Shown here: piece after piece, positions 21,457 to 64,000 of the stretch
How the letters are laid out: each line of letters opens with the position of its first letter
How positions within the stretch are numbered: the first letter of the stretch is position 1
NCBI GenBank assembly: GCA_950054155.1
Contig: CATLOT010000011.1
Location: 1 to 64,000 of the forward strand
Source of the DNA: an uncultured Bacteriovoracaceae bacterium
GTDB taxonomy: Bacteria; Bdellovibrionota; Bacteriovoracia; Bacteriovoracales; Bacteriovoracaceae
Direction: 5' to 3'
Length of the DNA: 64,000 bases
Position numbers and translations under genes: made by a program
The notes under the pieces: generated by a model
The model's input: only the letters and a program-made list of their open reading frames with translations
Database searches by the model: none
Told to the model about the DNA's origin: nothing

Positions 21457-22755
21457 ATGAAAAGACTACTTTTAAGCCTATACCTTATAACTTCACTTTC
21501 ATCTCTTGCGAATGAGGTGGCCAAGGTCATTATCCTCAAGGGAAATGTCGCCGCCTATGTGGAGAACTCTGAAAAGCCGCGAAAATTGAAAAGAGGAGAC
21601 TGGGTCTCAGAAGGTGAGATTATAAAGTGCGCTGGTAAGAGCTTTGCGAAGCTTCTCTTTATCGATAAGTCACAGATTAATATTTCGCCAAATTCAGAAA
21701 TGGTCATAAAGGAATTTCCTCGCAAAAAAGCAGGAATAATTAATCTTATTAAAGGAAAGGTGAGGGCAAAGGTTACAAAGAACTATATGGATATTAATCC
21801 CTCAGGCTCTAAGCTTTTTATAAAAACTCGTACAGCGGCCATGGGTGTCCGTGGAACAGATTTTCAAGTGATTTTTAATCCTAAAAATGATGTGACGTCT
21901 CTTTTGACCTTCGAAGGTGCCGTCGCAATGGCAAAGCTTAATGGCAATATCCCTAATGACCAAAGGAACCTTGATAATCTTCTCAATAATAGAGAAGCTG
22001 TTCTTGTTCGCGCTGGTCAATTCTCGGGCTCAATGCCTAGTAGAGGTCGTGTTTCCCTTCCTGTTAAAATTTCACCCACTCAACTGGAGTCACTTAAAAA
22101 TAGTGATGATCAAGTGAGTTCTGGAAAAACGAAGAAGGTTGAAAAAAAGAGTAAGGTGGTGCGCTCAATTGTTCCCAAAGGTCTTGACCCTAAGAAGGTC
22201 GCCGAAGTTGGTCAGGAGATCGTTAAAAAGACGATTGGCGTAAACTCTTCAACCGAAGTAAAGACTGATAGAGGGAATCGGCCGCCAGCTGAGGGATTTA
22301 GCAACAAGAGAACGGGTGAGTTTGCTCCTCCTGCTGGAGGTTATGTTGATCAAAAGACTGGTCTTTATGTCCCCCCTGTTGAAGGGAGTACTTATGATGC
22401 TAATGCTGAAGTTTATATCCCACCTCCAGAAGTTGGAAGTGTTGATGTTGAAACGGGAGAATATGTTCCACCAGAGGGCTATAAATTGACAGACTCTGGT
22501 GAATTAACAAAAGAAGTGGACACTTCAAGGGGACCTGCGAGTGTCGGCACTACTAATGAAAGTAAGATCAATGTAATTACGGCAGCTGAAACTGGCGTGA
22601 GTGGTGGAGCAGAGGCGGCGGATGGTCCTAGTGGTGATACTCAAAAGAGGCTGATTAATAACTTTCAGCAAGAAACACTACAAGACTTTAATAATCCTAC
22701 AGAGAAAAAAGTTCGCACAGGAAATCCCAACGTAAAGATACGTCTCAGACGCTAA
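21457..22755 (+). CDS. FecR-domain protein with C-terminal proline-rich repeats (cassette 1)
   Basis: 432 aa with a signal peptide (MKRLLLSLYLITSLSSLA). A FecR-like domain spans ~25-155: GNVAAYVENSEKPRKLKRGDWVSEGEIIKC, INISPNSEMVIKEF, NLIKGKVRAKV, IKTRTAAMGVRGTDFQV. Residues ~270-345 hold about four 16-residue repeats of the form PPxxGxxDxxTGxYxP. The C-terminal fifth is polar and Gly/Asn-rich. The same repeats occur in the gene cut off at the right edge of the window, and both are followed by paralogous TPR/barrel genes. Likely periplasmic; partner unknown. Confidence 0.85.
   Translation: MKRLLLSLYLITSLSSLANEVAKVIILKGNVAAYVENSEKPRKLKRGDWVSEGEIIKCAGKSFAKLLFIDKSQINISPNSEMVIKEFPRKKAGIINLIKGKVRAKVTKNYMDINPSGSKLFIKTRTAAMGVRGTDFQVIFNPKNDVTSLLTFEGAVAMAKLNGNIPNDQRNLDNLLNNREAVLVRAGQFSGSMPSRGRVSLPVKISPTQLESLKNSDDQVSSGKTKKVEKKSKVVRSIVPKGLDPKKVAEVGQEIVKKTIGVNSSTEVKTDRGNRPPAEGFSNKRTGEFAPPAGGYVDQKTGLYVPPVEGSTYDANAEVYIPPPEVGSVDVETGEYVPPEGYKLTDSGELTKEVDTSRGPASVGTTNESKINVITAAETGVSGGAEAADGPSGDTQKRLINNFQQETLQDFNNPTEKKVRTGNPNVKIRLRR
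22270..22490 (+). repeat. Coding repeat: ~48-base units encoding a 16-residue proline-rich motif (cassette 1)
   Basis: Successive units in the FecR protein contain EGFSNKRTGEFA, GGYVDQKTGLYVP, GSTYDANAEVYIP and GSVDVETGEYVP, each introduced by PP or a Pro/Ala/Gly group. The DNA units have diverged but the protein spacing of about 16 residues is kept. The final unit runs into a YKLTDSGEL tail. Confidence 0.65.
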
Positions 22756-22797
22756 GATGTGTTATTATAAGAAAAACTGACCATGGATGGTTTTTCT

Positions 22798-24390
22798 ATG
22801 CTGAGACTCTCAAAGTCCCAAAACTTTTTTATTATACTCTCATTTTTAACATGTCTGTCTTCTTTCGCTCGGGTTGATTTGAGTGAATTCTATAAGCACT
22901 TTAAGAAAGGGGAGTATCTTAAGGCTCAGGATATCATAGGGAGAATTCCTTATGATGAAGCCTTTGAGGGGACACGTTATTATCTTCTAGCGATTACCTT
23001 TAAGTATTTACAGCGACACGATCTCGCTGTTCCCAATTTTAAAAAAGCGATTCAATTAGGGAAGAAATCAGAGGATCTCTTCTTTGAGTATGGACAGTCT
23101 CTCTTTGCTATCAATGAGCTTGAAGCTGCGAGAAGAGCTTTTCGTATCTCTTATAAGGCGCAATTTAAAGAAGCCTATTCTCTCTATTACATCGCCCATA
23201 TTAGTGAAATTTTAGAGGATCACAATAAAGTAAAAAGTAATTATGCGAAGATCTTAAAGAATCCCGAAGCTGAGCCTGAAATTAAACAAGTGGCTTACTT
23301 AAGATTGGCAGAGCTTATTTACGAGCAAACAAAGAACAAATTCTACGCGGAAAACTATATCGCCGACTATGTTGTCCCGCTACTCAATAGAGGTCTCGCT
23401 ATTGACCCCGAGAGTGACAATGGAAAAGAAATTCAATCTCGCTACGATGAAATTCTTCTAAAGCAAAATATGCACCCTTTGCTCCTTGAAAATGGTCGGC
23501 TGCTCTCAAGACAAGGGGATAATCTTTTTTTCACTCAGAGTTTTGAGTACGACAATAATGTTACTCTAGAATCCGATTCTCCCTCTCAAACAAATACGGC
23601 CACTGATATAGCAAGTTGGTATAGCCGCTCAGACTTTTTTTACAGTAAAAGGTTTGTCGGAGGTAAGCACTATGTCTTCACTCCTGAGCTAAGGCTTACC
23701 CATACTCACTATTTTAATCGAGATAATAGTCAAATCTTTCAAAACGACTCCTATTCAATAGCTCCCGCTCTTAGAGGGTCTTATAACTTTTCATGGAATA
23801 AAAAGAGAGCAGAGCTTCTCTTTGAATTAGACTACAATTATACGGCCAGAGATATCTATGGCATTGAAGAGAGAAAGTTCTATGGACGCTCAACCATCTA
23901 TTCTCTTGGTCTTCGAAGAAAGTTCTTCGACAAAGGGGATACGACTATTAAACTTAGGAGTCGAAATCTCTCAAGTTATCTCGAGGAACTCTCTGGAAAG
24001 ACGACAACGCTCTATGCTGATCAATTATGGATCCGTGAAAATGGTCATATCGTCATTGGCCTAGCTATTTATGATATGTATCGTCCCAATAGTGAGAGTC
24101 TTAGCACTAACTCTCTTCTTTTAAGGACAGACTATTTAATGCCTCAGTTTTGGCAAGGTCTTGATCTTAACTTATCGGGGAGTATCAACTTTCTCGACAC
24201 CATGGAGCAAGCCGACACCCGAGGAACTGAGAAAACCTACGGACTTGAAGTGAGGCTTCAAAAGCGTTGGAATAAGAAATGGAGGTTTGGAGTGGGGTAT
24301 AACTACGCTAAGAACACCTCTCTTGATGAGGAGAATTTTAGCTATACCCGATCACTTTGGTCGCTTGAGGCGCGCTATTCCTTTTACTAG
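22798..24390 (+). CDS. Exported TPR protein with C-terminal beta-barrel-like domain (cassette 1)
   Basis: 530 aa from the ATG at 22798, where GGATGG lies seven bases upstream and a signal peptide (MLRLSKSQNFFIILSFLTCLSSFA) begins directly; an ATG at 22783 is an alternative. Residues ~30-215 are TPR-like helices (RYYLLAITFKYLQRHDLAVPNFKKAIQLG, FEYGQSLFAINELEAARRAF). Residues ~240-530 consist of alternating aromatic/hydrophobic strands ending SLEARYSFY, a C-terminal aromatic typical of outer-membrane barrels. It is clearly paralogous to the gene at 61684-63300: EYGQ(S/A)L(F/Y)AxNEL, SLYY(I/M)AHIS and TRGTEKT recur. Likely acts with the FecR protein 42 bases upstream. Confidence 0.8.
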   Translation: MLRLSKSQNFFIILSFLTCLSSFARVDLSEFYKHFKKGEYLKAQDIIGRIPYDEAFEGTRYYLLAITFKYLQRHDLAVPNFKKAIQLGKKSEDLFFEYGQSLFAINELEAARRAFRISYKAQFKEAYSLYYIAHISEILEDHNKVKSNYAKILKNPEAEPEIKQVAYLRLAELIYEQTKNKFYAENYIADYVVPLLNRGLAIDPESDNGKEIQSRYDEILLKQNMHPLLLENGRLLSRQGDNLFFTQSFEYDNNVTLESDSPSQTNTATDIASWYSRSDFFYSKRFVGGKHYVFTPELRLTHTHYFNRDNSQIFQNDSYSIAPALRGSYNFSWNKKRAELLFELDYNYTARDIYGIEERKFYGRSTIYSLGLRRKFFDKGDTTIKLRSRNLSSYLEELSGKTTTLYADQLWIRENGHIVIGLAIYDMYRPNSESLSTNSLLLRTDYLMPQFWQGLDLNLSGSINFLDTMEQADTRGTEKTYGLEVRLQKRWNKKWRFGVGYNYAKNTSLDEENFSYTRSLWSLEARYSFY

Positions 24391-24480
24391 TTTCAGGTGT
24401 TTAGAGTATCTCTTAAGTTTTTTCGTAAGATTCCGTTAAGTTACTAGAATTGCTGAATTTTATTGAGAAGGAAAAGGCAT

Positions 24481-25494
24481 ATGAATTCTGAGAAATGGTA
24501 CTTATACGATCCCGAAACAGAAGAAAAAATCGAGCTCTCATTTGAAAAAGAGTTTGTTGTCGGTAGGGCCAAATCAAATGACCTCCCTATTTCAGATCAA
24601 TCCATTTCGTCACGTCATGCAAAAATCCTTCTGAAAGAGAAGAATCTCTGGATCGTTGATCTCAACAGCTTTAATTCAACATATCTTAACGGCAAAGAAA
24701 TTGAAGGGGAGAAGGAATATAAGTTAAAACCTCGAGATGTTATCCAGTTTGGAGACAAGGTTTATTATTTTTCTTCAACAGAGGCGAACCAAGCCTTTCT
24801 TGATCTTCCTAGCTTAACGGGCTCTTTTAATTTAACAATTAATGATACTCAAGATGTGGTTCTTCATAATTATGATGAGCCTGTGATCAATCTTGAAAGT
24901 AAGAAGAAGACTTTTTCTTTAAAAGGACTAAGAAAACAAAAAGAAGAACTCGATACTCTGAAACAGCAACTTAAAGAAGCTGAAAATGGTGTCAAAAATA
25001 GAGAAAAGACGCGTAAGAAGGCAGGAATAAAAGCTAAAGAACTTGAAGAATTTAACTCTTATTTAAAGGCTAAGAACTATCAGTCAGAAAGCGCAGTAAA
25101 AGCGACGATGGATAGTATTTTAGAGGTTAATGAAAGGTTAGAGCGTGACAAAGATAAAATTGGCTTAGAGATAAAGAAACTCGAAGAGCAAATCCTAGCC
25201 TTTAAAAATGAGATCAAAGAACTTGATAAGACTGAAGAAACCAATAAAGCGATTATGAGTGAATTAAAAAATGATATTGAAATCATTAAGGGAAGAGACT
25301 CCCTCGAAGAGGAGCTTTCTGTTCTATATCGCAAAATTCGTAGCTGGGAAAAAGAAGATATTACTCAGCAGATCACCATGATTAAAGTCTTAATCGAAGA
25401 GAAAGAGGTTGAATTTAAGAAAGTTCAAAAAGAATATGCCGATTCTCGATTTGGCGATAATTCAAAGCTATTTGGTGGAAAGAAAGTAGGTTAG
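24481..25494 (+). CDS. FHA-domain protein with long coiled coil (cassette 1)
   Basis: 337 aa from the ATG at 24481, preceded by a GAAGGAAAAGG stretch. The FHA domain at ~15-95 has all signature residues: VGRAKSND, SISSRHAKI and NSFNSTYLNGKEI, predicting phosphothreonine-peptide binding. From ~150 to 330 the protein is charged heptad-rich coiled coil (KQKEELDTLKQQLKEAENGVKNR...). No transmembrane segment, so probably cytosolic. It follows the TPR/barrel gene by 90 bases; this position is occupied in cassette 2 by a cyclase. Ends four bases from the convergent hydrolase gene. Confidence 0.88.
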   Translation: MNSEKWYLYDPETEEKIELSFEKEFVVGRAKSNDLPISDQSISSRHAKILLKEKNLWIVDLNSFNSTYLNGKEIEGEKEYKLKPRDVIQFGDKVYYFSSTEANQAFLDLPSLTGSFNLTINDTQDVVLHNYDEPVINLESKKKTFSLKGLRKQKEELDTLKQQLKEAENGVKNREKTRKKAGIKAKELEEFNSYLKAKNYQSESAVKATMDSILEVNERLERDKDKIGLEIKKLEEQILAFKNEIKELDKTEETNKAIMSELKNDIEIIKGRDSLEEELSVLYRKIRSWEKEDITQQITMIKVLIEEKEVEFKKVQKEYADSRFGDNSKLFGGKKVG

Positions 25495-52272: not shown

Positions 52273-53610
52273 ATGATCAAGATTAAGAAAGGTCTCGATT
52301 TACCTATCTCTGGGGTTCCCGCCCAAAAAATCTTTAATGCGCCAGCTGTGACTGAAGTCGCGCTGACTGGACCAGATTACGTGGGAATGAAACCTACGAT
52401 GTTTGTAAAAGTCGGTGACAAAGTTAAAGTTGGTGACCCTATTTTTGAAGACAAGAAGACACCTGGTGTTCTTTTTACTTCTCCCGCTCATGGTACGGTA
52501 AAAGCTATCAATAGAGGGGAGAGAAGAGTTCTTCAAAATGTTGTGATCTCAGTTGAAGGTGAAGAGCAAAAAGCTTTTGACTCTTATCTTTCAAAAGAGG
52601 CAGGTGAGTACGAAGGCAAAGAGATTGAAGCTCTTATGGTTGAAGCCGGTCTTTGGCCTGCTTTTAGAACCCGTCCTTTTTCACGCTCTCCAGAACTGGG
52701 AAGCCAGCCTTCAAGTATCTTTGTGAGCCTCATGGACACCAATCCTCTTGCTGCTGATCAAGAAGTGATTCTTGCTGAGTATGAAGAAGCTTTTAAAATA
52801 GGTGTTGAAGCGCTTACAAAGCTTGCTCCAAAAGTATTTGTTACCAAGAGAAAAGGGGCGAAAACTCCAAGTGTTGCCGGTGAAAAAGTCATTGAAGAAG
52901 AATTCTCTGGACCTCACCCAGCAGGACTTGTGGGCACACATATCCACCACCTTGATCCAGTCTCTCTTAATAAGAAAGTTTGGCATATCGGTCTTCAAGA
53001 TGTGATCGCTCTTGGTCACCTCCTGAGTACTGGTAAAGTCTTTATTGAAAGAGTGGTTGCTTTGGCCGGGCCAAAGGCAACGAATCCAAGACTTTTGAGA
53101 ACTCGACTTGGTGCTTGCATGAAGCAAATTACGGCGGCTGAAGTGGCGACGGGTCCTGTTCGTATTATTTCAGGGTCAATCCTTAGTGGACGTAAAATGG
53201 ATGATACCTTTTGCTTCCTTGGTCGCTTCCATACTCAGGTTTCAGTGATCGAAGAAAATAGCGATCGTGAATTTCTTGGTTGGCAAGGTCCTGGATACGA
53301 TAAGTATTCAATCAAGAATTGCTATGCTGGAAAATTCAAAAATAAAGTCTTTGATTTTCACACCAACACTTATGGCTCACGCCGTGCCATCGTTCCCGTG
53401 GGAATGTTTGAAGCGGTTATGCCTCTTGATATTCTTCCCACTCAGCTTATTAAAGCTCTTAAGACAAAAGATGCAGACCTTGCTACTGCTCTTGGCTGTC
53501 TCGAGTTGGATGAAGAAGATCTGGCCCTTTGTACTTTTGCCTCTCCAGGAAAAGATGACTTTGGTCCAGCCCTTAGAGAAACGTTAACGACTATTGAGAA
53601 GGAAGGATAA
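52273..53610 (+). CDS. nqrA: Na+-translocating NADH:quinone reductase subunit A
   Basis: 445 aa, family length. The N-terminal [18 protein letters not shown] and the biotinyl-like [44 protein letters not shown] are diagnostic, as are [21 protein letters not shown] and [14 protein letters not shown]. It is the cytosolic, cofactor-poor subunit that contributes the quinone site. First gene of an eight-gene operon. Confidence 0.97.
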
Positions 53611-54812
53611 TGAAGGCCTTAAGGAATTTCCTCGACTCCCAACATGATCTCTTCGCAGAGGGTGGAAAGTTAGAAAAGTTCTATCCCCTCTATGAAATGA
53701 TCGACACATTTGTTTACACTCCCGGTGAAACAGCCCATGGTTCAGTTCACGTAAGAGATGCTATTGACCTCAAAAGACTTATGGGGACAGTGGCCATTGC
53801 TCTTATTCCCTGTATTTTAATGGCGCTTTACAACACCGGTTACCAGGCCAATACCGTTCTTGCGGGAATGGGGCAAACTGTTGCTGAAGGTTGGCGTGGA
53901 TGGATTCTAAGCATGCTCGGTCTTGCGACAGATCCTACCAATATTATTTCAAACGTCATTCATGGTGCTCTCTACTTTGTTCCTGTTTTTCTTGTGACTC
54001 AGATCGCGGGTGGTCTTTGTGAAGTCGTTTTCGCGGTAGTGAGAAAGCACGAGATTAACGAGGGCTTTCTCGTAACAGGGATGCTCTACCCACTGACTCT
54101 TCCTCCTACGATTCCTCTATGGCAAGTTGCTATCGGTATTATCTTTGGTGTTGTCGTTGGTAAGGAAATCTTTGGCGGTACAGGGAAGAACTTTCTTAAC
54201 CCAGCTCTTACGGCCCGTGCCTTCCTCTTCTTTGCTTACCCAGCTCAGATTTCTGGCGATAAGGTATGGACGGCAGTTGATGGTCACTCAGGAGCAACGA
54301 TCCTTTCTCAAACCGTTCAAAGCGGTATCCAAGGTGTAGACTTTAGCTTCTTTGAAGCTTTCATCGGTCTGATCCCTGGTTCAATGGGTGAGACATCAAC
54401 TCTTGCTTGTCTTCTAGGGGCGGCTTACTTGATTATTACGGGAATTGGTTCTTGGAGAATCATTCTTTCAAGTTTTATCGGTCTTATTCTTACGACTGGA
54501 CTCTTCTTTATGATGGGAAGTGACACCAACCTTATGTTCTCAATGCCACCTCTATGGCATGTGGTTGTCGGTGGTTTCGCTTTTGGTGCTGTCTTTATGG
54601 CAACTGATCCTGTATCCGCTTCAATGACGGAAACAGGGAAGTGGTACTACGGCTTTCTCATTGGCTTTATGGTTGCGCTCATTCGTGTTGTGAACCCTGC
54701 TTATCCAGCGGGAACAATGCTTGCGATCCTCTTTGCCAATTGTTTTGCACCCCTAATTGATTACTTTGTGGTTAATGCCAATATTAAGAGGAGGGCCCTC
54801 AGAAATGTCTAA
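53610..54812 (+). CDS. nqrB: Na+-NQR subunit B
   Basis: 400 aa, starting in the TAATG that ends nqrA. Many transmembrane helices, with [28 protein letters not shown] typical of NqrB/RnfD. DGHSGAT (Thr230) is the site where FMN is attached by ApbE. It binds riboflavin and quinone and carries the Na+ path across the inner membrane. Confidence 0.97.
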
Positions 54813-55587
54813 CGATAGTACAGTAAAAACCCTCGTTGTTGCGACCGCCTTATGTGTTGCCTGTTCGGTTCTTGTTTCTACTGCTGCAGTAAAACTAAAA
54901 CCAATTCAGGTTAAGAATAAGCGTCTCGACGTTAAGAAAAACCTCCTTCTCGCTGCCGGTCTTATAGAGTCTTCTAAGGCTAACGAAAAAGAAGTGAATG
55001 AAGCCTATACTCAAGTTGAGACTAAGCTCATTGATCTTTCTACAGGTAAGGAAGTCACGGATATGGACCCCGCGACTTACGATCTTGAAAAAGCTGATAA
55101 AGACCCTGAACTGGCCACTGAAATTCCAGCGGATGAAGATATTGCTAAAATCAAGACTCGTGCAAAAGTAAGACCTGTTTACCTTGTTAAAAGTGGTGGT
55201 CAGGTTAGCCAGATCATTCTTCCTTTTCATGGGAAGGGACTTTGGTCAACAATGTACGGCTTCCTCTCTCTTGCTCCTGATACGCAGACAGTTAAAGGGA
55301 TTGGTTTTTACCAGCACGGTGAAACTCCCGGACTTGGGGGAGAAATTGATAACAAGAAGTGGCAAGCGAATTGGGAAGGGAAGAAAGTTCTCTCTGAAAA
55401 TTACAAGCCAACAATTGATGTTATTAAAGGAAGTGTCGACTCAAGTACACCTGGAGCTGAGAGTAAAATCGACGGTCTTAGTGGAGCGACGCTTACATCA
55501 AATGGAGTTGAAGCCAGTGTTAATTACTGGGTGAGTAACGAAGGTTACGGAAAATTCCTGGCGAACTTTCGTGCAGGAGGAGTGTAG
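54805..55587 (+). CDS. nqrC: Na+-NQR subunit C
   Basis: 260 aa from the ATG at 54805, overlapping nqrB by eight bases; the frame's earlier start is unneeded. One N-terminal membrane anchor ([19 protein letters not shown]) and a periplasmic domain with [24 protein letters not shown] and DGLSGAT (Thr229) for covalent FMN. Confidence 0.97.
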
Positions 55588-55589
55588 AT

Positions 55590-56207
55590 ATGAGTGTTAA
55601 GAAAACTCTTTTTGATCCCTTATTTAATAATAACCCCATTGCTCTGCAGATTCTTGGGATCTGTTCAGCCCTTGCGGTTACGACTAAGTTAGAAACAGCG
55701 CTGGTCATGTCTGTTGCGGTTATCCTTGTAACAGCATTCTCTTCCTTCTTTGTTTCTATCATTAGAAACCATATTCCTTCATCGATTCGTATTATCGCTC
55801 AGATGGTTGTCATTGCTTCGATGGTTATTCTGACAGATCAGGTCCTCAAGGCCTTTGTCTTTGATGTCTCAAAGTCAATGTCGGTCTATGTCGGTCTGAT
55901 CATTACCAACTGTATCGTGATGGGACGCGCTGAAGGTTACGCCATGAAGAATGGTCCTGTGATGTCTCTTCTTGATGGTATTGGAAATGGAATTGGTTAC
56001 TCTTTCATTCTCATCGTTGTTGCCTTCTTTAGAGAACTCTTTGGATCGGGCAAGCTTATGGGCTTCACTGTCTTTAAGACCATCGGTGATGGTGGTTGGT
56101 ACCAGCCCAATGGTATGGCCCTTCTTTCACCATCGGCCTTCTTCATTATTGGCTTCATTATTTGGGCCATTAGAACTGTTAAAACTGATCAAATTGAAGC
56201 TGAGTAA
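55590..56207 (+). CDS. nqrD: Na+-NQR subunit D
   Basis: 205 aa, six-helix membrane protein; [27 protein letters not shown] at the start and [21 protein letters not shown] are NqrD/RnfE signatures. With NqrE it holds the intramembrane iron-sulfur centre through Cys residues such as that in ITNCIVMGR. Two bases after nqrC. Confidence 0.96.
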
Positions 56208-56218
56208 GGATACAAGCT

Positions 56219-56833
56219 ATGGAACACCATCTTAACTTATTTATTAAAGCTGTTTTTATTGAAAACTTAGCCCTAGGTTTCTTCCTTGGAATGTGTACCT
56301 TTCTTGCCGTTTCTAAGAAAGTAAATACAGCCCTTGGTCTTGGGGTCGCGGTTGTTGTGGTGCAGACGATTACTGTTCCTGTAAACAATCTTATCTATAA
56401 TAATCTTCTTAAAGAGGGAGCTCTTGCTTGGGCAAGTCCAAGTCTAGCTTCTGTCGATCTCTCTTTTCTTGGCCTTATCTCGTATATTGGAGTTATCGCG
56501 GCCATGGTTCAGATTCTTGAGATGACTCTCGATCGCTTCTTTCCTTCACTCTATAACGCGCTTGGGATTTTCCTTCCGCTTATTACTGTGAACTGTGCGA
56601 TTCTTGGAGGGACACTCTTCATGGTTGAGCGTGATTATAACTTTGCTGAGTCTGTTACTTACGGAGTTGGCTCTGGTGTTGGTTGGGCCCTTGCGATTGC
56701 TGCACTTGCAGGAATCCGTGAGAAGATGAAGTACTCTGATGTTCCTCCGGGACTGAGAGGTCTAGGGATTACCTTTATTACCGTTGGTCTGATGGCCATT
56801 GGTTTTCTTGGCTTCTCTGGTATCCAACTTTAA
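56219..56833 (+). CDS. nqrE: Na+-NQR subunit E
   Basis: 204 aa, six helices in inverted relation to NqrD. Shows [37 protein letters not shown] and [20 protein letters not shown], with the two Cys expected to bind the iron centre (GMCTF and VNCAI). Confidence 0.96.
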
Positions 56834-56874
56834 GAGTAAATTTAGAAGTTTAATTTAAGATATAGGATAAAATT

Positions 56875-58098
56875 ATGAGTCAAATTTTCTTAGGGGTGCT
56901 TATGTTTACCGTGGTCATTTTGGCCTTGGTACTCATCATTCTTTTGGCGAAATCATACCTCGTTGCATCTGGTCCCGTTAAGCTTGATATTAACGGTGAA
57001 AAAGAAGTTGAAGTGTCTGCCGGTGGTAAGCTCCTCAATATTCTTGCCGACCAAAAGCTATTTGTAAGCTCCGCCTGTGGTGGTGGTGGTACATGTGGCC
57101 AGTGTAAAGTTAAGGTTCTTGAAGGTGGGGGAGAGATCCTTCAAACAGAAATGTCTCACATCTCAAAAGGGGAAGCCCGTGAAGGTGTTCGTCTTTCTTG
57201 TCAGGTTGCTGTTAAGCAGGACATGAAAGTTGAAGTTCCTGAAGAGGTCTTCGGTGTTAAGAAGTGGGAATGTACTGTTAAGTCTAACGAGAACGTTGCG
57301 ACTTTCATTAAGGAATTTGTTCTTGAACTTCCTCCTGGTGAAGAAGTTCCTTTCCGTGCCGGTGGTTTCATTCAGATTGAAAGACCAGGCGGACTTAATA
57401 TCGATTATAAAGATTTCTCTGTTGAAGAAGAATATAGAGAAGACTGGGATAAGTTCAATCTGTGGCAATATAAGTCTTATGTAGCAGAGCCCACGATTAG
57501 AGCTTACTCAATGGCGAACTACCCAGAAGAGAAGGGAATCATTATGCTTAATGTGCGTATTGCTTCTCCTCCTCCACGTCTGCCTAATGTCCCTCCAGGG
57601 AAAATGTCTTCTTATATCTTTAGCCTTAAACCAGGTGATAAGACGACGATCTCTGGTCCTTTTGGAGAGTTCTTTGCTCGCGATACAGAAAAGGAAATGG
57701 TCTTTGTTGGCGGTGGTGCAGGTATGGCGCCAATGCGCTCACACATTTTTGATCAATTCCGTCGTATCAAGACTGATCGTAAGGTTACTTTCTGGTACGG
57801 AGCTCGTTCAAAGCGTGAGATGTTCTATGTAGAAGACTTCGATATGATTCAAAGAGAGAATGAGAACTTCAAGTGGCACGTAGCCCTTTCAGATGCCCTT
57901 CCTGAAGATAATTGGGAAGGTTACACTGGCTTTATCCACCAGGTTCTTCATGATGAGTATCTTAAGGATCATCCAAACCCTGAGGATTGTGAGTACTATC
58001 TCTGTGGTCCACCAATTATGAATAAGTGTGTGATTGATATGCTTATTTCTCTTGGTGTAGAAAGAGAAGATATCATGCTCGATGACTTTGGTGGATAA
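56875..58098 (+). CDS. nqrF: Na+-NQR subunit F (NADH dehydrogenase flavoprotein)
   Basis: 407 aa. N-terminal membrane helix, then a 2Fe-2S ferredoxin domain ([21 protein letters not shown] and RLSCQVAV), an FAD domain ([13 protein letters not shown]) and an NADH-binding domain ([34 protein letters not shown]). It takes electrons from NADH into the pump. A 41-base gap precedes it. Confidence 0.97.
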
Positions 58099-58101
58099 GA
58101 A

Positions 58102-59193
58102 GTGAATCATAAGTATATAAAATTAAGTTTTTCAAATGCCCTAGCAATGCTGGGGCTTTTGTTTTTTTCAGGTTGCCTTTCTAAGGAAGGGGAGCTCATT
58201 CATATTAGTGGTCGCACCATGGGGACTCACTACAATGTGAAGTTCTACTCCAGCAAGGATCTCGATTCAAAAGAGTTGGCCCAAGAGGAGATCGACACCA
58301 TTCTTAAGAAAGTGAATAAGGAAATGTCCACTTACCTTAAGGAAAGTGAGATCAGCTACTTTAATAACTCTGACCGTATTGGTTGGATCAGTATTAGTAA
58401 GAGTTTCTTTAAGGTGACTGAGTATGCCCTCAATCTTGCGAAGAATACTGAGGGACGCTTTGATCCCACGATTGGACCACTTGTTAATCTTTGGGGATTT
58501 GGCCCTGGGGGTGAGCGCAAGGTTCCAAAGGAAGAGGAGATTAAGGCGGCTCAAATGAGAGTTGGTTTTGATAAAATTCTTCTTAATAAAGAAAAGAGTG
58601 AAATCAAAAAGAAAGTGCCTGGGATCTATCTTGACCTCTCCAGTCTCGCCAAGGGTTTTGGTGTTGATCAGGTCAGTGACTTTCTTGAGTCTAAGAAGAT
58701 TCAAAGCTATATGGTGGAGATTGGCGGAGAAGTGCGCACCCTCGGAAAGAAAGTTAAGGGCGGGGCTTGGCGTATCGCTATTGAGGCTCCTCACCCCGAG
58801 AACTCTGGAGAGCAATACCAAAAGATTCTTGATCTTAATAAAATGAGTTTGGCCACGAGTGGAAACTATCGTAATTTCTTTATGGAAAATGGGCAGAAGT
58901 TCTCCCATACCCTTGATTCTAAGACGGGCAGACCTGTTGCCCACACTCTTGCGAGCGTTTCTGTCGCCCATCCTGAGAGCTGTATGAAGGCTGATGCACT
59001 CGCTACGGCCTTGATGGCCATGGGAGTAGAAAAAGGCCTAGACTTCGCTCAAAAAGAGGGGATTGCAGCCTATTTTGTTTTCAGGGATGATGGCCAAGAG
59101 GGTCAGCCCTTTGTTACTAAAGAAACAACAGAATTTTCACGCCTCTTTGGCCCTAAAAAGGTCGATAAGGTTTCAAAGGTTCAGTCGTTATGA
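58102..59193 (+). CDS. apbE: FAD:protein FMN transferase, lipoprotein
   Basis: 363 aa from a GTG four bases after nqrF. Lipoprotein signal with [10 protein letters not shown]. ApbE motifs: [62 protein letters not shown], and the metal/flavin site [14 protein letters not shown]. It transfers FMN to Thr in the D-x-x-S-G-A-T motifs of NqrB and NqrC, both visible in this operon. Confidence 0.95.
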
Positions 59194-59441
59194 AGCTCTT
59201 TCTTCTCTCCTTAACAGTCGTTGGTCTCGCTATTCTTGGAATGGCCGTCGGAGTCATTATCAGTAATAAGAAGCTTAAAGGCTCCTGTGGTGGCCTTGGC
59301 GCTATTATGGGTGAAGATTGCATGTTCTGCGATAAGAAAGAAGAGTGTGAAGAAGAGAAAAAAAGAGAGGCCATTTTAAAGGCCCCTCTTGATATTGATT
59401 CTGATTCAGGTCTTGTTCAGCTTAAGAATCTCGTCGATTAA
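59190..59441 (+). CDS. nqrM: NqrM, Na+-NQR maturation factor
   Basis: 83 aa. One N-terminal transmembrane helix followed by [21 protein letters not shown], whose cysteines are characteristic of the DUF539/NqrM family thought to deliver iron to the NqrD/NqrE centre. It overlaps apbE by four bases, and its TAA stop directly abuts the stop of the convergent cyclase gene. Confidence 0.93.
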
Positions 59442-61670
59442 TTACTTTGATGTCAGAGTCCAGACACCATCCCAATTTGGCGGTGGCGGTACCTTTATAT
59501 ACTCTTCACAGCGCTCAATATAAATTTCACTTGGATTAGTCTTTACTCCCTTAAGCTCAGGGAAACGCTGGTATTCTAATTCCAGTGTCTCTTTAAAAGT
59601 ACCAAGGGCTTCTTCAAAGCGTTGGGCCTTATAAAGTGAGAGGCCAAGGGTGAATTTTTCAGCGAGTTCCTTAAGAAAATCTGGTGCAGAGTCTTTTAAC
59701 CCTAGAAGATCATAACTGGTAACGGGCACTGATTTTCCCATCACCCGAATGGTATCAAGTTCTCGCCATAGAAAATCGTCTCCAGCGAGTTCTACAGTTT
59801 CTTTAGCGACTTGAGTGAAGATGCCATATTGCTTGGCTGACTCTTCGAGGCGGGCTGCGAGGTTCACGCTATCTCCCATCATTGTATAGTTCATTCGCGA
59901 GGCGGAGCCCATATTTCCGGTCACGATTTCACCGGAATTGATCCCAATTCTCATGCGCATTTCATGAACAATTTGCGGCCACTTGTCTCCTTCGCCTTGC
60001 CACTTGATGCGAAGCTGAGCGAGTTTCATCTGCATTTGATGGGCGACGAGGCAGGCGCGGTGAGCGTGATCTTCAAGAGGCATGGGAGCGCCAAAGAAAG
60101 CGATGATGGCGTCACCCTCATACTTATCAAGGGTGCCTTTTTCTTCAAGAAGAATGTCCGTCATAGCGGTAAGGTATTCATTGAGAAGCTCTACAAGTTG
60201 AGTAGCAGTTAGCTTTTCTGAAAAGGTTGAGAAGCCTTGGATATCTGTGAAGTAGGCCGTTCGTACCCCAGAGTCTCCACCAAGCTTTGGAGGCTCACCA
60301 CTTTTATACATTTCATCAATAAGTTCTGGAGAGATATAGTTTCCAAAAGCACTCTTTAAAAAAGCCTTGTCTTTATTGGCGAGATAAAAGTGGAGAAAGG
60401 TATTCCACATGTAAATACCAATGATGGAAAAGAGAATGAAGAAGAGCTTAATCTCATAGCCCTCTGGAGTGAAGTGATTGATGTCGGCATAGAAGGCTCC
60501 ACTTGAGATTAAGATAGCCCCGAGAACATCGAAGAGGGGATTTCCGAGGAATTGAATAATGATCATCAGAAGCGAGCCGCCGATCAAGAGATACCAAGAC
60601 CACTTCACGGATTCGGCCATGGGCTTAAAGAAATTTCCTTCAAGCAGCATATGAAGCATATTCATGTGAAAGAAAACCCCTGGCATAAGAGGGTCCACCG
60701 GGGTGTGGCGCAGGTCGTGAGCACCATAGGCCGTTGATCCAATGAAGACGACATTACCATTGAAGGCCTGTTTGAGGATGGGATCATCATCGGCTGCATT
60801 GAGAACATCCCAAAAACTATAAGTGGGAAAATGGCCTTCACCACCTAGCCAGCGCACTTTTGTTTCACCGAGATTATTAAGATGAAGGTCGCCACTTTTA
60901 AGCTTTAAGACGTATTCGCCGTAGTTGAGCATTTCAAGGGTGATGCTGTCGCCTGTATAGGCCTCATAGGTCGCGAGTGAAAAGCCTGGAAGATAGAGGG
61001 TTTCAACATTTCCAACCAAAGGGTAGTGGCGAAGAAGACCATCTTTATCGGCTTCAACTTGAATGTGGGCGAGAGCAACATCTTTTTCTGATATCTGAGG
61101 AATGGGGAAGACTCTTCTCTCAACGTACATCTGACGGGTGTTTAAGCCTTCACTTTGCTTGGTGTCCATGACAAAGTTGTAGAGGACATCAGGCATTTGC
61201 TCAAAGATCTCCTCTGGATAGCTTGAAAGAGAGTAGGGAATGACAACTCGATTGCCATCGACACTTTGAAAGTTCGCCATCGCCTCTGTGAATTCACTAT
61301 CTACATTAGAGCCTGGACACACAAGGGCCTGTTCTGAAAAGAAGACGTCATAGGCGATGACCTTTGCGCCAAAATTCTTAAGCTTATTCATCAGACGAGT
61401 GTAGTTTTCACGGGGAAAAGGCCACTTTCCAATTGCTTTAATCGATTCATCATCGATGGCAACAAGGGTAACACGCTTATCAATTTTAGATTTATCACGA
61501 ATGAGATTCTCTCGATAATCATAGAAGCGCGACTCAAAGAGAGAGGTAAAAGCAAAATTACTCTTTGTTTGATGGCTTTCTTCTCTAAATCCTACGGATA
61601 TCAGAATACAAAGAGAGGAGAAACCTAGGATTAAAAAGACTCCTAGGTATTTAATAATTTTTGACCACAT
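59442..61670 (-). CDS. CHASE2-domain class III adenylate cyclase (cassette 2)
   Basis: 742 aa. N-terminal membrane helix, an extracytoplasmic CHASE2 sensor (~30-350; VTLVAIDDESIKAIGKWPFPRENYTRLMNKL, GAKVIAYDVFFSEQ, NVVFIGSTAYGAHDLRHTPVDPLMPGVFFHMNML), three helices (~355-430), then a cyclase domain. Metal Asp in YFTDIQGF and YEGDAIIAFFG; Lys in LDKYEGD and Asp in MMGDSVNLAARLE indicate ATP rather than GTP; Asn and Arg of NLAARLE complete the site. A ~70-residue tail resembles one TPR. It follows the TPR/barrel gene by 13 bases, which suggests that envelope cues control cAMP production. Confidence 0.93.
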   Translation of the reverse strand: MWSKIIKYLGVFLILGFSSLCILISVGFREESHQTKSNFAFTSLFESRFYDYRENLIRDKSKIDKRVTLVAIDDESIKAIGKWPFPRENYTRLMNKLKNFGAKVIAYDVFFSEQALVCPGSNVDSEFTEAMANFQSVDGNRVVIPYSLSSYPEEIFEQMPDVLYNFVMDTKQSEGLNTRQMYVERRVFPIPQISEKDVALAHIQVEADKDGLLRHYPLVGNVETLYLPGFSLATYEAYTGDSITLEMLNYGEYVLKLKSGDLHLNNLGETKVRWLGGEGHFPTYSFWDVLNAADDDPILKQAFNGNVVFIGSTAYGAHDLRHTPVDPLMPGVFFHMNMLHMLLEGNFFKPMAESVKWSWYLLIGGSLLMIIIQFLGNPLFDVLGAILISSGAFYADINHFTPEGYEIKLFFILFSIIGIYMWNTFLHFYLANKDKAFLKSAFGNYISPELIDEMYKSGEPPKLGGDSGVRTAYFTDIQGFSTFSEKLTATQLVELLNEYLTAMTDILLEEKGTLDKYEGDAIIAFFGAPMPLEDHAHRACLVAHQMQMKLAQLRIKWQGEGDKWPQIVHEMRMRIGINSGEIVTGNMGSASRMNYTMMGDSVNLAARLEESAKQYGIFTQVAKETVELAGDDFLWRELDTIRVMGKSVPVTSYDLLGLKDSAPDFLKELAEKFTLGLSLYKAQRFEEALGTFKETLELEYQRFPELKGVKTNPSEIYIERCEEYIKVPPPPNWDGVWTLTSK

Positions 61671-61683
61671 AAGGGACCCTTAA

Positions 61684-63300
61684 TTAGTAACTGGCACTTA
61701 TTTCAAAGCGCACAACATTCTTCTTATAATCAAAACTATTCTTATCTTTTGAAATATTCTTCGTGTAATCAAAGCCTAGTGTTGCTGAGATTCGTTTTCC
61801 AAAAGCCTTCTTAATTTCAATCGAAGGAGCAATCGTTTTCTCTGTACCACGTGTTGCGCTTTGCTCTTTAGTGTCAAGGGCGCTAAGGCTCATTGTCGCG
61901 GTGAGAGTATAGGTCGGCCAGATCTCAGGCCAGAGATAGTCGGTACGAAAGATAAAGTTATTCGTGCTCGTATTAGAATTATTATAGGTATCAATAAAGT
62001 CAGCTCTTAAGAGAAAGATGAAGAGGTGACCCCATGACGTACTCTTAATTTGATCCACAGAGATTGTCTTTGTCTTATTAAAGAGAGTCTCTGTGTAAGC
62101 ACGATAGTCTTTATAGGCGAATTTAACTGTCGTCGGGCCAAAGTTAAAGAAGCGAAAACGCTCGCCAACTGTAAAGGTCCAGGCGCGAGAGAAGAAGTTC
62201 TTCTCTTTAATCCCTTGCGCGTCTCTTCCAATATAAACATATTCAAGGTCATAGAGGAGGTTGGCCTGTTTTCCAAAAGCACTGTGCTCATAGGTATTTC
62301 GAGAACCCATTGTCATATTATAGGTGTCATTTTTAAAGACAGTGCTGTCTTCTCTTTCTGTGTGGTAAACATTACGAAAGCGAAAGAAGGGGGTGAAGGT
62401 AAAGCGTTTCTTATGAGCGAAGAGGTATTGAAAGTTAAAGTTTGTCTCATGGATAAAGGTATCTTTTTGAAGAGAAGCTGCAGTGGGGACATCGGTTGCT
62501 AAGGTGATATTGCTGTCTCTTGAGATTTGATGGCGAAAGCGCGCGCTAAAGCGCTGTTCTTGGAGAACACGACCATTTTCCATGATATTGGGATCAAGTC
62601 CATACTGGCGCTGAATTTCCTTTCTTCTCTTTTCAATGTCCTTTGCAAGTTTTCCGTCGGGAAGGGTACTAAAGGCCTGGTTAAGGGCAGGAAGAACATA
62701 CTTATCAACGAGCCTAGCAGAGTCATCTCTATTTTCAGCGAGGGCGAGAAAGGACTCTGAAAGTTGAAAACGCGCAATTTGTTGCATCTTCTTATCATTC
62801 TTGCTCATTTTGATAAGCTTTGAGTAAAAGTCTCGTGCCTTCTTATGCTCCTCTAAGAGCTGAGAGATATGGGCCATATAATAGAGTGAACTTTCTTTTT
62901 TAAAGCCTTTTTCAAAACTTTGAGAAAAAGCGTCTCTCGATTTTAGAAGTTCATTATTGGCATAGAGTGCTTGTCCATACTCATAATGAAGATCATCAGC
63001 TTTGTGTTTTTTTTGCAGGGACTTCTTAAAAGATTCGGCGGCCTGATCATATTGTTGAAGGCGGTTTTGAATAAGTCCTTCTAGATAGTAGCGAGTGGCG
63101 AGGACCTTTCGGGGGGACTTTATTTTCTTAAGGGAGTCGAGTGCATCGCTGTACTTTGCTAACTTAAATTCTTTGAAGGCTTTGATGAGGTGAACATTCT
63201 TATACTTAGCGTGAAGGGGAGTAGAGAAGAGGGAAATACAAATAAAAATCTTTAAGAACTTCAAGATTCCAATCCTTTTTGATGCTCGATCCATGAACAA
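61684..63300 (-). CDS. Exported TPR protein with C-terminal beta-barrel-like domain (cassette 2)
   Basis: 538 aa; signal peptide ending near STPLHA (start at 63300 or at the next Met, 63294). TPR-like helices at ~35-220 (ATRYYLEGLIQNRLQQYDQAAESFKKSLQKK, YEYGQALYANNELLKSRDAF), then strand-rich sequence to the end (NVVRFEISASY, a C-terminal aromatic). Paralogous to 22798-24390 over its whole length. Lies between the FecR gene and the cyclase gene and probably links them, for example as an outer-membrane sensor or export channel; this role is inferred. Confidence 0.8.
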   Translation of the reverse strand: MFMDRASKRIGILKFLKIFICISLFSTPLHAKYKNVHLIKAFKEFKLAKYSDALDSLKKIKSPRKVLATRYYLEGLIQNRLQQYDQAAESFKKSLQKKHKADDLHYEYGQALYANNELLKSRDAFSQSFEKGFKKESSLYYMAHISQLLEEHKKARDFYSKLIKMSKNDKKMQQIARFQLSESFLALAENRDDSARLVDKYVLPALNQAFSTLPDGKLAKDIEKRRKEIQRQYGLDPNIMENGRVLQEQRFSARFRHQISRDSNITLATDVPTAASLQKDTFIHETNFNFQYLFAHKKRFTFTPFFRFRNVYHTEREDSTVFKNDTYNMTMGSRNTYEHSAFGKQANLLYDLEYVYIGRDAQGIKEKNFFSRAWTFTVGERFRFFNFGPTTVKFAYKDYRAYTETLFNKTKTISVDQIKSTSWGHLFIFLLRADFIDTYNNSNTSTNNFIFRTDYLWPEIWPTYTLTATMSLSALDTKEQSATRGTEKTIAPSIEIKKAFGKRISATLGFDYTKNISKDKNSFDYKKNVVRFEISASY

Positions 63301-63392
63301 ATATTCTTTTGATCATTATAGCTAAAGGACTGATTTTATTCTAGAGTTGCTCTTTTTACCCTTTGCTTCAAAGCAGAGCAGTCGGTTATTGA

Positions 63393-64000
63393 TTACTCCG
63401 CATTAACGTTGAAGTTTACATTGGAACTTTGGGTGCCTCCGAAAATAAGATTATTATCCGAGTTATTAAAGTCCTCAAAGGTTTCATTATTCTCACTCAT
63501 CTGTTCATCAACTAAAGAAGCAAGGTTAGGATCAAGCTCTGGAGCAGAACCGTCGCCACTTGAGCCAAAGCTTGGTGGTGGGGGCACATCGCCTTCCATC
63601 ACAGAGTCCATCATTTCTGGATTAATATTGTCCATCATTGTGGGAACCATGGTTACTGTTGGTGGCGGTGGGGGAGCGCTTTCACTCTTTGCTCCAGAGT
63701 CAGCGCTGGCCGGAGCACGTGTTCCAGGAGTTGGTGAATTGCTGGCTACTTCTTTTGGTTTCTCACTAAAAGAGCCATCCTCATTGAGAACAAAGTGATC
63801 ATTCATATAGTTTCCAGTTGCGGGATCAATTCCACCCATCTCTGGTGGGGGGACATAGACGCCAGCATTGGCATCAAATGTGGAACCCGGTGGTGGTGGG
63901 ATATACTGTGCTGTTTTAATATCGACAAAGCCACCCGCTGTTGGAGCAATTTGTCCTGTTTTCATATTGATGGAACCTTCTGGAGGAGCCGTTTGTGCTG
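63393..64000 (-). CDS. FecR-type protein, C-terminal part only (cassette 2; 5' end beyond window)
   Basis: The reading frame is open to the window edge, so this is the last ~202 residues of a larger protein. Four ~16-residue proline-rich repeats are visible (EGSINMKTGQIA, GGFVDIKTAQYIP, GSTFDANAGVYVP, GGIDPATGNYM), matching those of the FecR protein at 21457, then a polar tail rich in Pro, Ser, Asn and Asp with PPPPPTVTMV and PPPPSFG. The FecR domain itself would lie outside the window; its presence is inferred from the paralogue. Followed by the TPR/barrel gene. Confidence 0.75.
   Translation of the reverse strand, partial: AQTAPPEGSINMKTGQIAPTAGGFVDIKTAQYIPPPPGSTFDANAGVYVPPPEMGGIDPATGNYMNDHFVLNEDGSFSEKPKEVASNSPTPGTRAPASADSGAKSESAPPPPPTVTMVPTMMDNINPEMMDSVMEGDVPPPPSFGSSGDGSAPELDPNLASLVDEQMSENNETFEDFNNSDNNLIFGGTQSSNVNFNVNAE

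Follow-up and report, generated by a model that had tools for sequence, protein, structure and literature searches.

A FecR and TPR-barrel gene pair upstream of a CHASE2 adenylate cyclase in the Bacteriovoracaceae: a candidate envelope-to-cAMP signalling locus

The input side of CHASE2 sensors is mostly obscure, and the described systems closest to the locus reported here come from other bacterial groups. In S. meliloti, it has been shown that the outer-membrane barrel protein NsrA is required for activation of CHASE2 cyclases, with cAMP as the output, in a pathway comprising NsrA, CyaK/CyaD1/CyaD2 and Clr (PMC7529298, PMC13001267); the FecR gene SMc02177 is dispensable for signal perception (PMC5498481). 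In Campylobacterota, as one report describes in a single passage, a CHASE2 adenylate cyclase is clustered with a FecR-domain outer-membrane protein, a TPR protein and a phosphodiesterase, for which the authors proposed one pathway (PMC9239204). In the Burkholderia BiofilmReg operon, a LysM-FecR periplasmic protein is encoded next to a CHASE2 kinase (PMC5192318). On the secretion side, T11SS outer-membrane proteins consist of TPR and a 14-strand barrel, PgaA having 16 strands (PMC8406197). Two T11SS surveys (PMC12282271 and PMC8406197) make no mention of FecR or of a cyclase, and FecR/CHASE2 signalling and T11SS secretion were found to be unconnected in the literature searched. A previous sequence-only reading of this DNA knew of no described system with its gene order; the combination has already been reported in Campylobacterota (PMC9239204), with related precedents in S. 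meliloti and Burkholderia.

The window analysed is the whole stretch of 64,000 nucleotides from an uncultured Bacteriovoracaceae bacterium. Toward its end, three adjacent minus-strand genes encode, in the order of transcription, a FecR protein, a 538-aa protein combining TPR with an outer-membrane beta-barrel (hereafter TPRB) and a CHASE2 cyclase, the cluster ending at 59442. This succession of three gene types, proposed from the sequence alone, was confirmed by open reading frames and domain matches. The FecR gene (488 aa, C11:63393-64859, minus strand) runs past the window, which holds only its C-terminal part (63393..64000). It is separated by 92 bases (63301..63392, minus strand), with no terminator-like site inside, from the gene encoding TPRB (61684..63300, minus strand), a predicted exported protein whose start codon is TTG at 63300 or ATG at 63294. 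The gene of the 742-aa cyclase (59442..61670, minus strand) follows after 13 bases (61671..61683, minus strand), exactly the spacing first noted. A terminator-like hairpin with a T-run lies about 50 bases past the cyclase stop (59363..59390, minus strand), as indicated by consensus scan only; the promoter and terminator scans returned a number of sites not above that of shuffled sequences, and no RNA element was found at the locus with Rfam.

The immediate neighbours of the cluster are DUF3943, OMP_b-brl, hemF and nqrM. On the 5' side of the FecR gene are encoded a small outer-membrane barrel (OMP_b-brl) and a DUF3943 protein (L011:5966-7452), which are kept in many cyclase-linked loci and directly precede the cyclase in loci L083, L093 and L107. 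On the other side, nqrM, the last gene of the Na+-NQR operon, is convergent with the cyclase gene; the Na+-NQR genes, with those of an ApbE-like protein and NqrM, occupy positions 53610-59441 of the window on the plus strand.

By its sequence, the 742-aa protein is a CHASE2 class III adenylate cyclase with intact catalytic residues. Its CHASE2 domain (residues 41-368; 60567..61550, minus strand; E 1.9e-48, 165.7 bits against a Pfam cut-off of 26.3) is predicted to be periplasmic, between a first predicted TM segment (residues 3-30) and later ones (354-397 and 407-428). The catalytic domain (residues 471-648; 59727..60260, minus strand) matches Guanylate_cyc (E 4.4e-23) and carries the metal Asp residues D476 and D520, the adenine-site Lys and Thr (K516 and T596) and the transition-state Asn and Arg (N603 and R607), all conserved in 26/26 cyclases of an alignment that also includes, as row 27, a CHASE2 histidine kinase. 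The genome encodes 12 cNMP-binding domains. CHASE2 paralogues of about 630 aa were considered as further cyclases and rejected: the single paralogue inspected proved to be a CHASE2 histidine kinase encoded just before an NtrC-type response regulator (L012:3859-7253, contig C1 of the same genome), and CHASE2 proteins of this length are near-universal in the family. In one relative (G068), the cyclase is broken up, 51 bases separating an ORF of 509 aa from another of 244 aa (L054:7784-10099), reflecting a frameshift, an assembly error or decay.

An AlphaFold model of TPRB, built from 23 homologues (mean pLDDT 86), predicts 11 TPR helices at residues 36-232 (62605..63195, minus strand; pLDDT about 93) and exactly 14 strands at residues 251-537 (61690..62550, minus strand), ending in an aromatic C-terminus; with a pTM of 0.57, the placement of the TPR domain relative to the barrel is uncertain. 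TPR models are matched by 27/27 members of the TPRB family. Sequence search returned solved-structure relatives for the TPR part only, and Foldseek returned BcsC as the best match (E 1.6e-10), along with the 14-strand porins CymA and OmpG, and PelB. Structure prediction and TPR profiles thereby bear out both folds that had been assigned to the second gene.

The signal peptide of the FecR protein runs straight into the FecR domain (C11:64389-64697; PF04773, E 6.8e-12, 43.3 bits against a cut-off of 24), located beyond the window end, and there is no anti-sigma N-terminus. The part within the window (63393-64000), a Pro-rich tail with 'DxxTGxYxPP'-like repeats, has no Pfam match, and the original label of FecR-type repeat protein was therefore a correct guess made from this tail. 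The TGxYxPP-type repeats span residues 292-351 (63807..63986, minus strand), and the protein ends in a strand-like tail, SSNVNFNVNAE (63396..63428, minus strand). An alternating C-terminal strand pattern was found in 63/71 TPRB-paired FecR proteins versus 1/13 unpaired ones, 126/1283 other ORFs and a mean of 8/71 shuffled tails; since the pattern was written after inspecting the tails, these counts are descriptive and do not constitute a blind test. In the model of a FecR orthologue, the FecR domain (27-212) is confident and the repeat zone moderate, the remainder being mostly disordered. The best matches of its FecR fold are the PupR cell-surface signalling domain (6ovk, E 9e-7) and the anti-sigma domain of BDI_1681.

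CHASE2 proteins were found in 94 of the 95 family genomes and the long cyclase type in 79. A first conservation count anchored on the cyclase alone was biased, and TPRB was therefore searched genome-wide on its own, adjacency being counted from both tables. This independent search of the 95 genomes recovered 102 near-full-length TPRB copies in 76 genomes, 40 of them (in 40 genomes) directly upstream of a long cyclase on the same strand, against a chance expectation of 0.17. The linkage is maintained over many genera with small gaps, and the order FecR, TPRB, cyclase recurs in dozens of genomes, including named relatives from Bacteriovoracaceae, Halobacteriovoraceae and Bacteriovorax. In the TPRB tree, most cyclase-linked copies fall in one clade, with 8 label changes versus 19.4 for shuffled labels, at least four of which are forced by well-supported branches (L073, a convergent neighbour, was counted as cyclase-linked). 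Inheritance therefore explains part of the 40 linked cases.

FecR is found directly upstream of TPRB, on the same strand, for 71/73 testable distinct TPRB sequences (76 with known surroundings, minus three at contig ends, one of which, L200, shows a cut-off FecR tail). It also precedes TPRB in 20/20 of the cyclase-free loci sampled, where the next gene is variable, encoding an FHA protein or a large lipoprotein (4/20) or lying on the opposite strand. Conversely, in many relatives hemF is directly divergent from the cyclase with neither FecR nor TPRB between, and in three relatives the DUF3943 and small-barrel couple stands alone between them; the cyclase is therefore independent of an adjacent pair. 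Two genomes have TPRB and cyclase without FecR. Other families of the phylum carry the FecR-TPRB pair, one locus (L203) having the order cyclase, FecR, TPRB. The invariant unit is accordingly the FecR-TPRB pair, and the cyclase is an attachable partner. The proposal of a three-gene cassette holds insofar as the three genes are a conserved unit whose full order recurs in dozens of genomes; only the pair, however, is invariant.

Several further arrangements deserve mention on their own. A second FecR-TPRB pair is present within the window (21457-25494, plus strand), followed by an FHA-domain protein and no cyclase, an arrangement shared by L138. Elsewhere, a cyclase-free pair is followed by a 1085-aa lipoprotein, likely a surface protein, which carries toward its end an endosialidase-type chaperone domain (L135:2859-6116). 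On contig C20 of the window's genome, a FecR gene is divergent from that of a 535-aa protein, which lacks a Pfam match and resembles another TPR-plus-barrel protein (L020:4883-8157).

Fusions have also been found. In at least 15 relatives, all among the fetched genomes, as well as in the window's own (C32:2744-4768, also listed as L013:2744-4768), FecR is fused to a TPRB-type barrel devoid of TPR. These proteins of about 645-720 residues have an N-terminal FecR domain, Pro-rich repeats as a linker and a C-terminal barrel, the linker repeats being of the same type as those of the FecR tail. In two further genomes, the FecR gene and that of a barrel lacking TPR are separate, with 2 bases between them.

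Comparable operons exist beyond the phylum: on Paracoccus aminophilus pAMI5 and Shinella sp. p1, the genes of a TPR-barrel protein, a FecR protein and a CHASE2 cyclase follow one another at short distances. In Azospirillum thermophilum, the pair occurs with no cyclase, and in Ruegeria and S. meliloti FecR adjoins a CHASE2 cyclase. Profile comparison between TPRB and the alphaproteobacterial TPR-barrels gave a weak C-terminal match only (probability 11), so that homology is not demonstrable at the profile level and the likeness is one of architecture. On Shinella and Ensifer plasmids, NHLP-type bacteriocin export genes are located beside FecR/CHASE2 cyclase clusters (L214:14055-17281 and L196:1-4809).

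Judging from gene arrangement and predicted folds, the FecR protein and TPRB very probably form an outer-membrane complex, as suggested by their strict adjacency, the fusions, the C-terminal strand of FecR and its PupR-like fold. In such a complex, the TPR and FecR domains would face the periplasm, and the Pro-rich FecR tail, ending in a beta-strand, would engage the 14-strand barrel. Where a cyclase is attached, an altered state of the complex, caused by a bound ligand, passing cargo or stress on the outer membrane, would be relayed by the periplasmic FecR domain to CHASE2, which would alter cytoplasmic cAMP synthesis, cAMP being read by the cNMP-binding proteins of the cell. Because the linkage of FecR to CHASE2 recurs with different outputs, anchors (LysM, barrel) and gene orders, the complex may well regulate the cyclase where the two are linked. 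Consistent with such a relay are the linkage in 40 genomes, the two genomes that retain TPRB and cyclase alone, the order in L203, the Paracoccus and Shinella operons, the FecR genes beside CHASE2 cyclases in Ruegeria and S. meliloti, the intact cyclase residues and the 12 cNMP-binding domains, together with the S. meliloti precedent in which NsrA acts on CHASE2 cyclases and cAMP. Against it stand the cyclase without the pair at the hemF locus, the concentration of linked copies in one clade and the dispensability of SMc02177 in S. meliloti (PMC5498481). Since the pair often lies directly before a cAMP-producing enzyme, these genes probably report outer-membrane events to the cell interior. 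Taken as a whole, the complex with its relay to CHASE2 and cAMP is the best explanation, which we hold with moderate confidence. The barrel itself may act as a receptor, a solute pore or a secretion-type translocon.

Another explanation, which we consider possible though doubtful, is that TPRB is a T11SS/Slam-like translocon, FecR being its retained cargo or plug, or a surface-lipoprotein accessory, and that the cyclase reports export or the state of the cell surface. The combination of TPR with 14 barrel strands is the one stated for T11SS, against 16 strands in PgaA (PMC8406197), and TPR_Slam is matched by 13/27 TPRB members, below its cut-off. The Paracoccus and Shinella FecR proteins carry a C-terminal domain like that of Slam-dependent surface lipoproteins (E 5.5e-9 and 1.2e-8, below the curated cut-off), and a large lipoprotein gene comes next in the 4/20 cyclase-free pairs mentioned above. 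In addition, the N-terminus of the FecR orthologue model matches the cell-surface anchoring domain 5ix9 (TM 0.75 by target, E 1.9e-3), and the FecR N-terminus has a weak match to the LapA retention module (E 7e-4). However, PF04575 (Slam) is unmatched by TPRB, neither the window's genome nor its relatives gave a match to it, the window's FecR protein lacks a TbpB-type barrel, and the profile comparison with the alphaproteobacterial TPR-barrels was weak. The architecture shared with T11SS, the resemblance of the alphaproteobacterial FecR ends to Slam cargo, the neighbouring lipoproteins and the fold match to an anchoring domain all point toward an export or plug role, but each of these pointers is a below-threshold match or an analogy. 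A more specific proposal, which we regard as unlikely, is that TPRB is a distant T11SS-like translocon and FecR its retained substrate, with the tail threading the barrel and the FecR domain in the periplasm; the CHASE2 cyclase would then read plug engagement, and cAMP would report export or surface contact, for example with prey.

It is rather improbable that FecR and TPRB make up an independent envelope structure or solute pore, placed before the cyclase by inherited gene order, with co-regulation but no signalling contact. The presence of the pair in all sampled cyclase-free loci, the hemF-cyclase locus devoid of it and the grouping of most cyclase-linked TPRB in one clade are what such independence would predict, but the linkage persists with small gaps over many genera, L203 shows another gene order, parallel operons exist in Alphaproteobacteria and Campylobacterota, and in Burkholderia FecR and CHASE2 are linked with a kinase too (PMC5192318). 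Finally, an exopolysaccharide exporter of the BcsC/PelB/PgaA kind, suggested by the Foldseek matches to BcsC and PelB and by one Azospirillum pair sitting among glycosyltransferases, is very unlikely, and membership in this porin group was rejected, as TPRB has 14 strands and not 16, no polysaccharide synthase adjoins the window genes and a FecR partner is foreign to these systems.

The preferred reading, a FecR-TPRB complex relaying to CHASE2 where linked, provides with its recurrent barrel and FecR partner a concrete and testable candidate for CHASE2 input. It suggests a path from the envelope to cAMP in a group some of whose members live by prey contact, the FecR-TPRB core generalising beyond a cyclase-linked system. 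In at least three phyla, a barrel and FecR are associated with CHASE2 cyclases, in differing domain arrangements, and the locus brings together two literatures, FecR/CHASE2 signalling and T11SS secretion.

Compared with known systems, the Campylobacterota cluster (PMC9239204) brings the same three kinds of protein together; there, FecR is described as carried on the outer-membrane protein and a phosphodiesterase is included, whereas at the window locus FecR is a protein of its own, the barrel protein includes the TPR domain and the neighbours scanned did not include a phosphodiesterase. The NsrA pathway is similar in its general layout of an outer-membrane barrel, CHASE2 cyclases and cAMP as the output; unlike in the window pair, the NsrA barrel lies at about residues 600-1200, and no FecR role in perception was found. 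BiofilmReg also places a periplasmic FecR protein beside a CHASE2 sensor but has a histidine kinase and response regulator output and no barrel. The FecR fold as a relay between an outer-membrane barrel and the inner membrane recalls FecIRA/PupIRB; membership in FecIRA-type cell-surface signalling was nevertheless rejected, as the anti-sigma N-terminal part and TM, an adjacent ECF sigma gene and a TonB receptor gene are all missing. LapA-type adhesin retention modules are weakly matched by the FecR N-terminus, in sequence as well as in structure, but no RTX adhesin or TolC-type pore was seen at the locus. With T11SS/Slam (DUF560) proteins, TPRB shares a periplasmic TPR domain and a 14-strand barrel, and the Paracoccus and Shinella FecR proteins end in a domain that resembles Slam cargo at below-cut-off scores. 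Similar FecR/TPR/CHASE2 clusters were thus already known in other phyla; what is new is the strict FecR-TPRB pairing and the likeness to a secretion pore.
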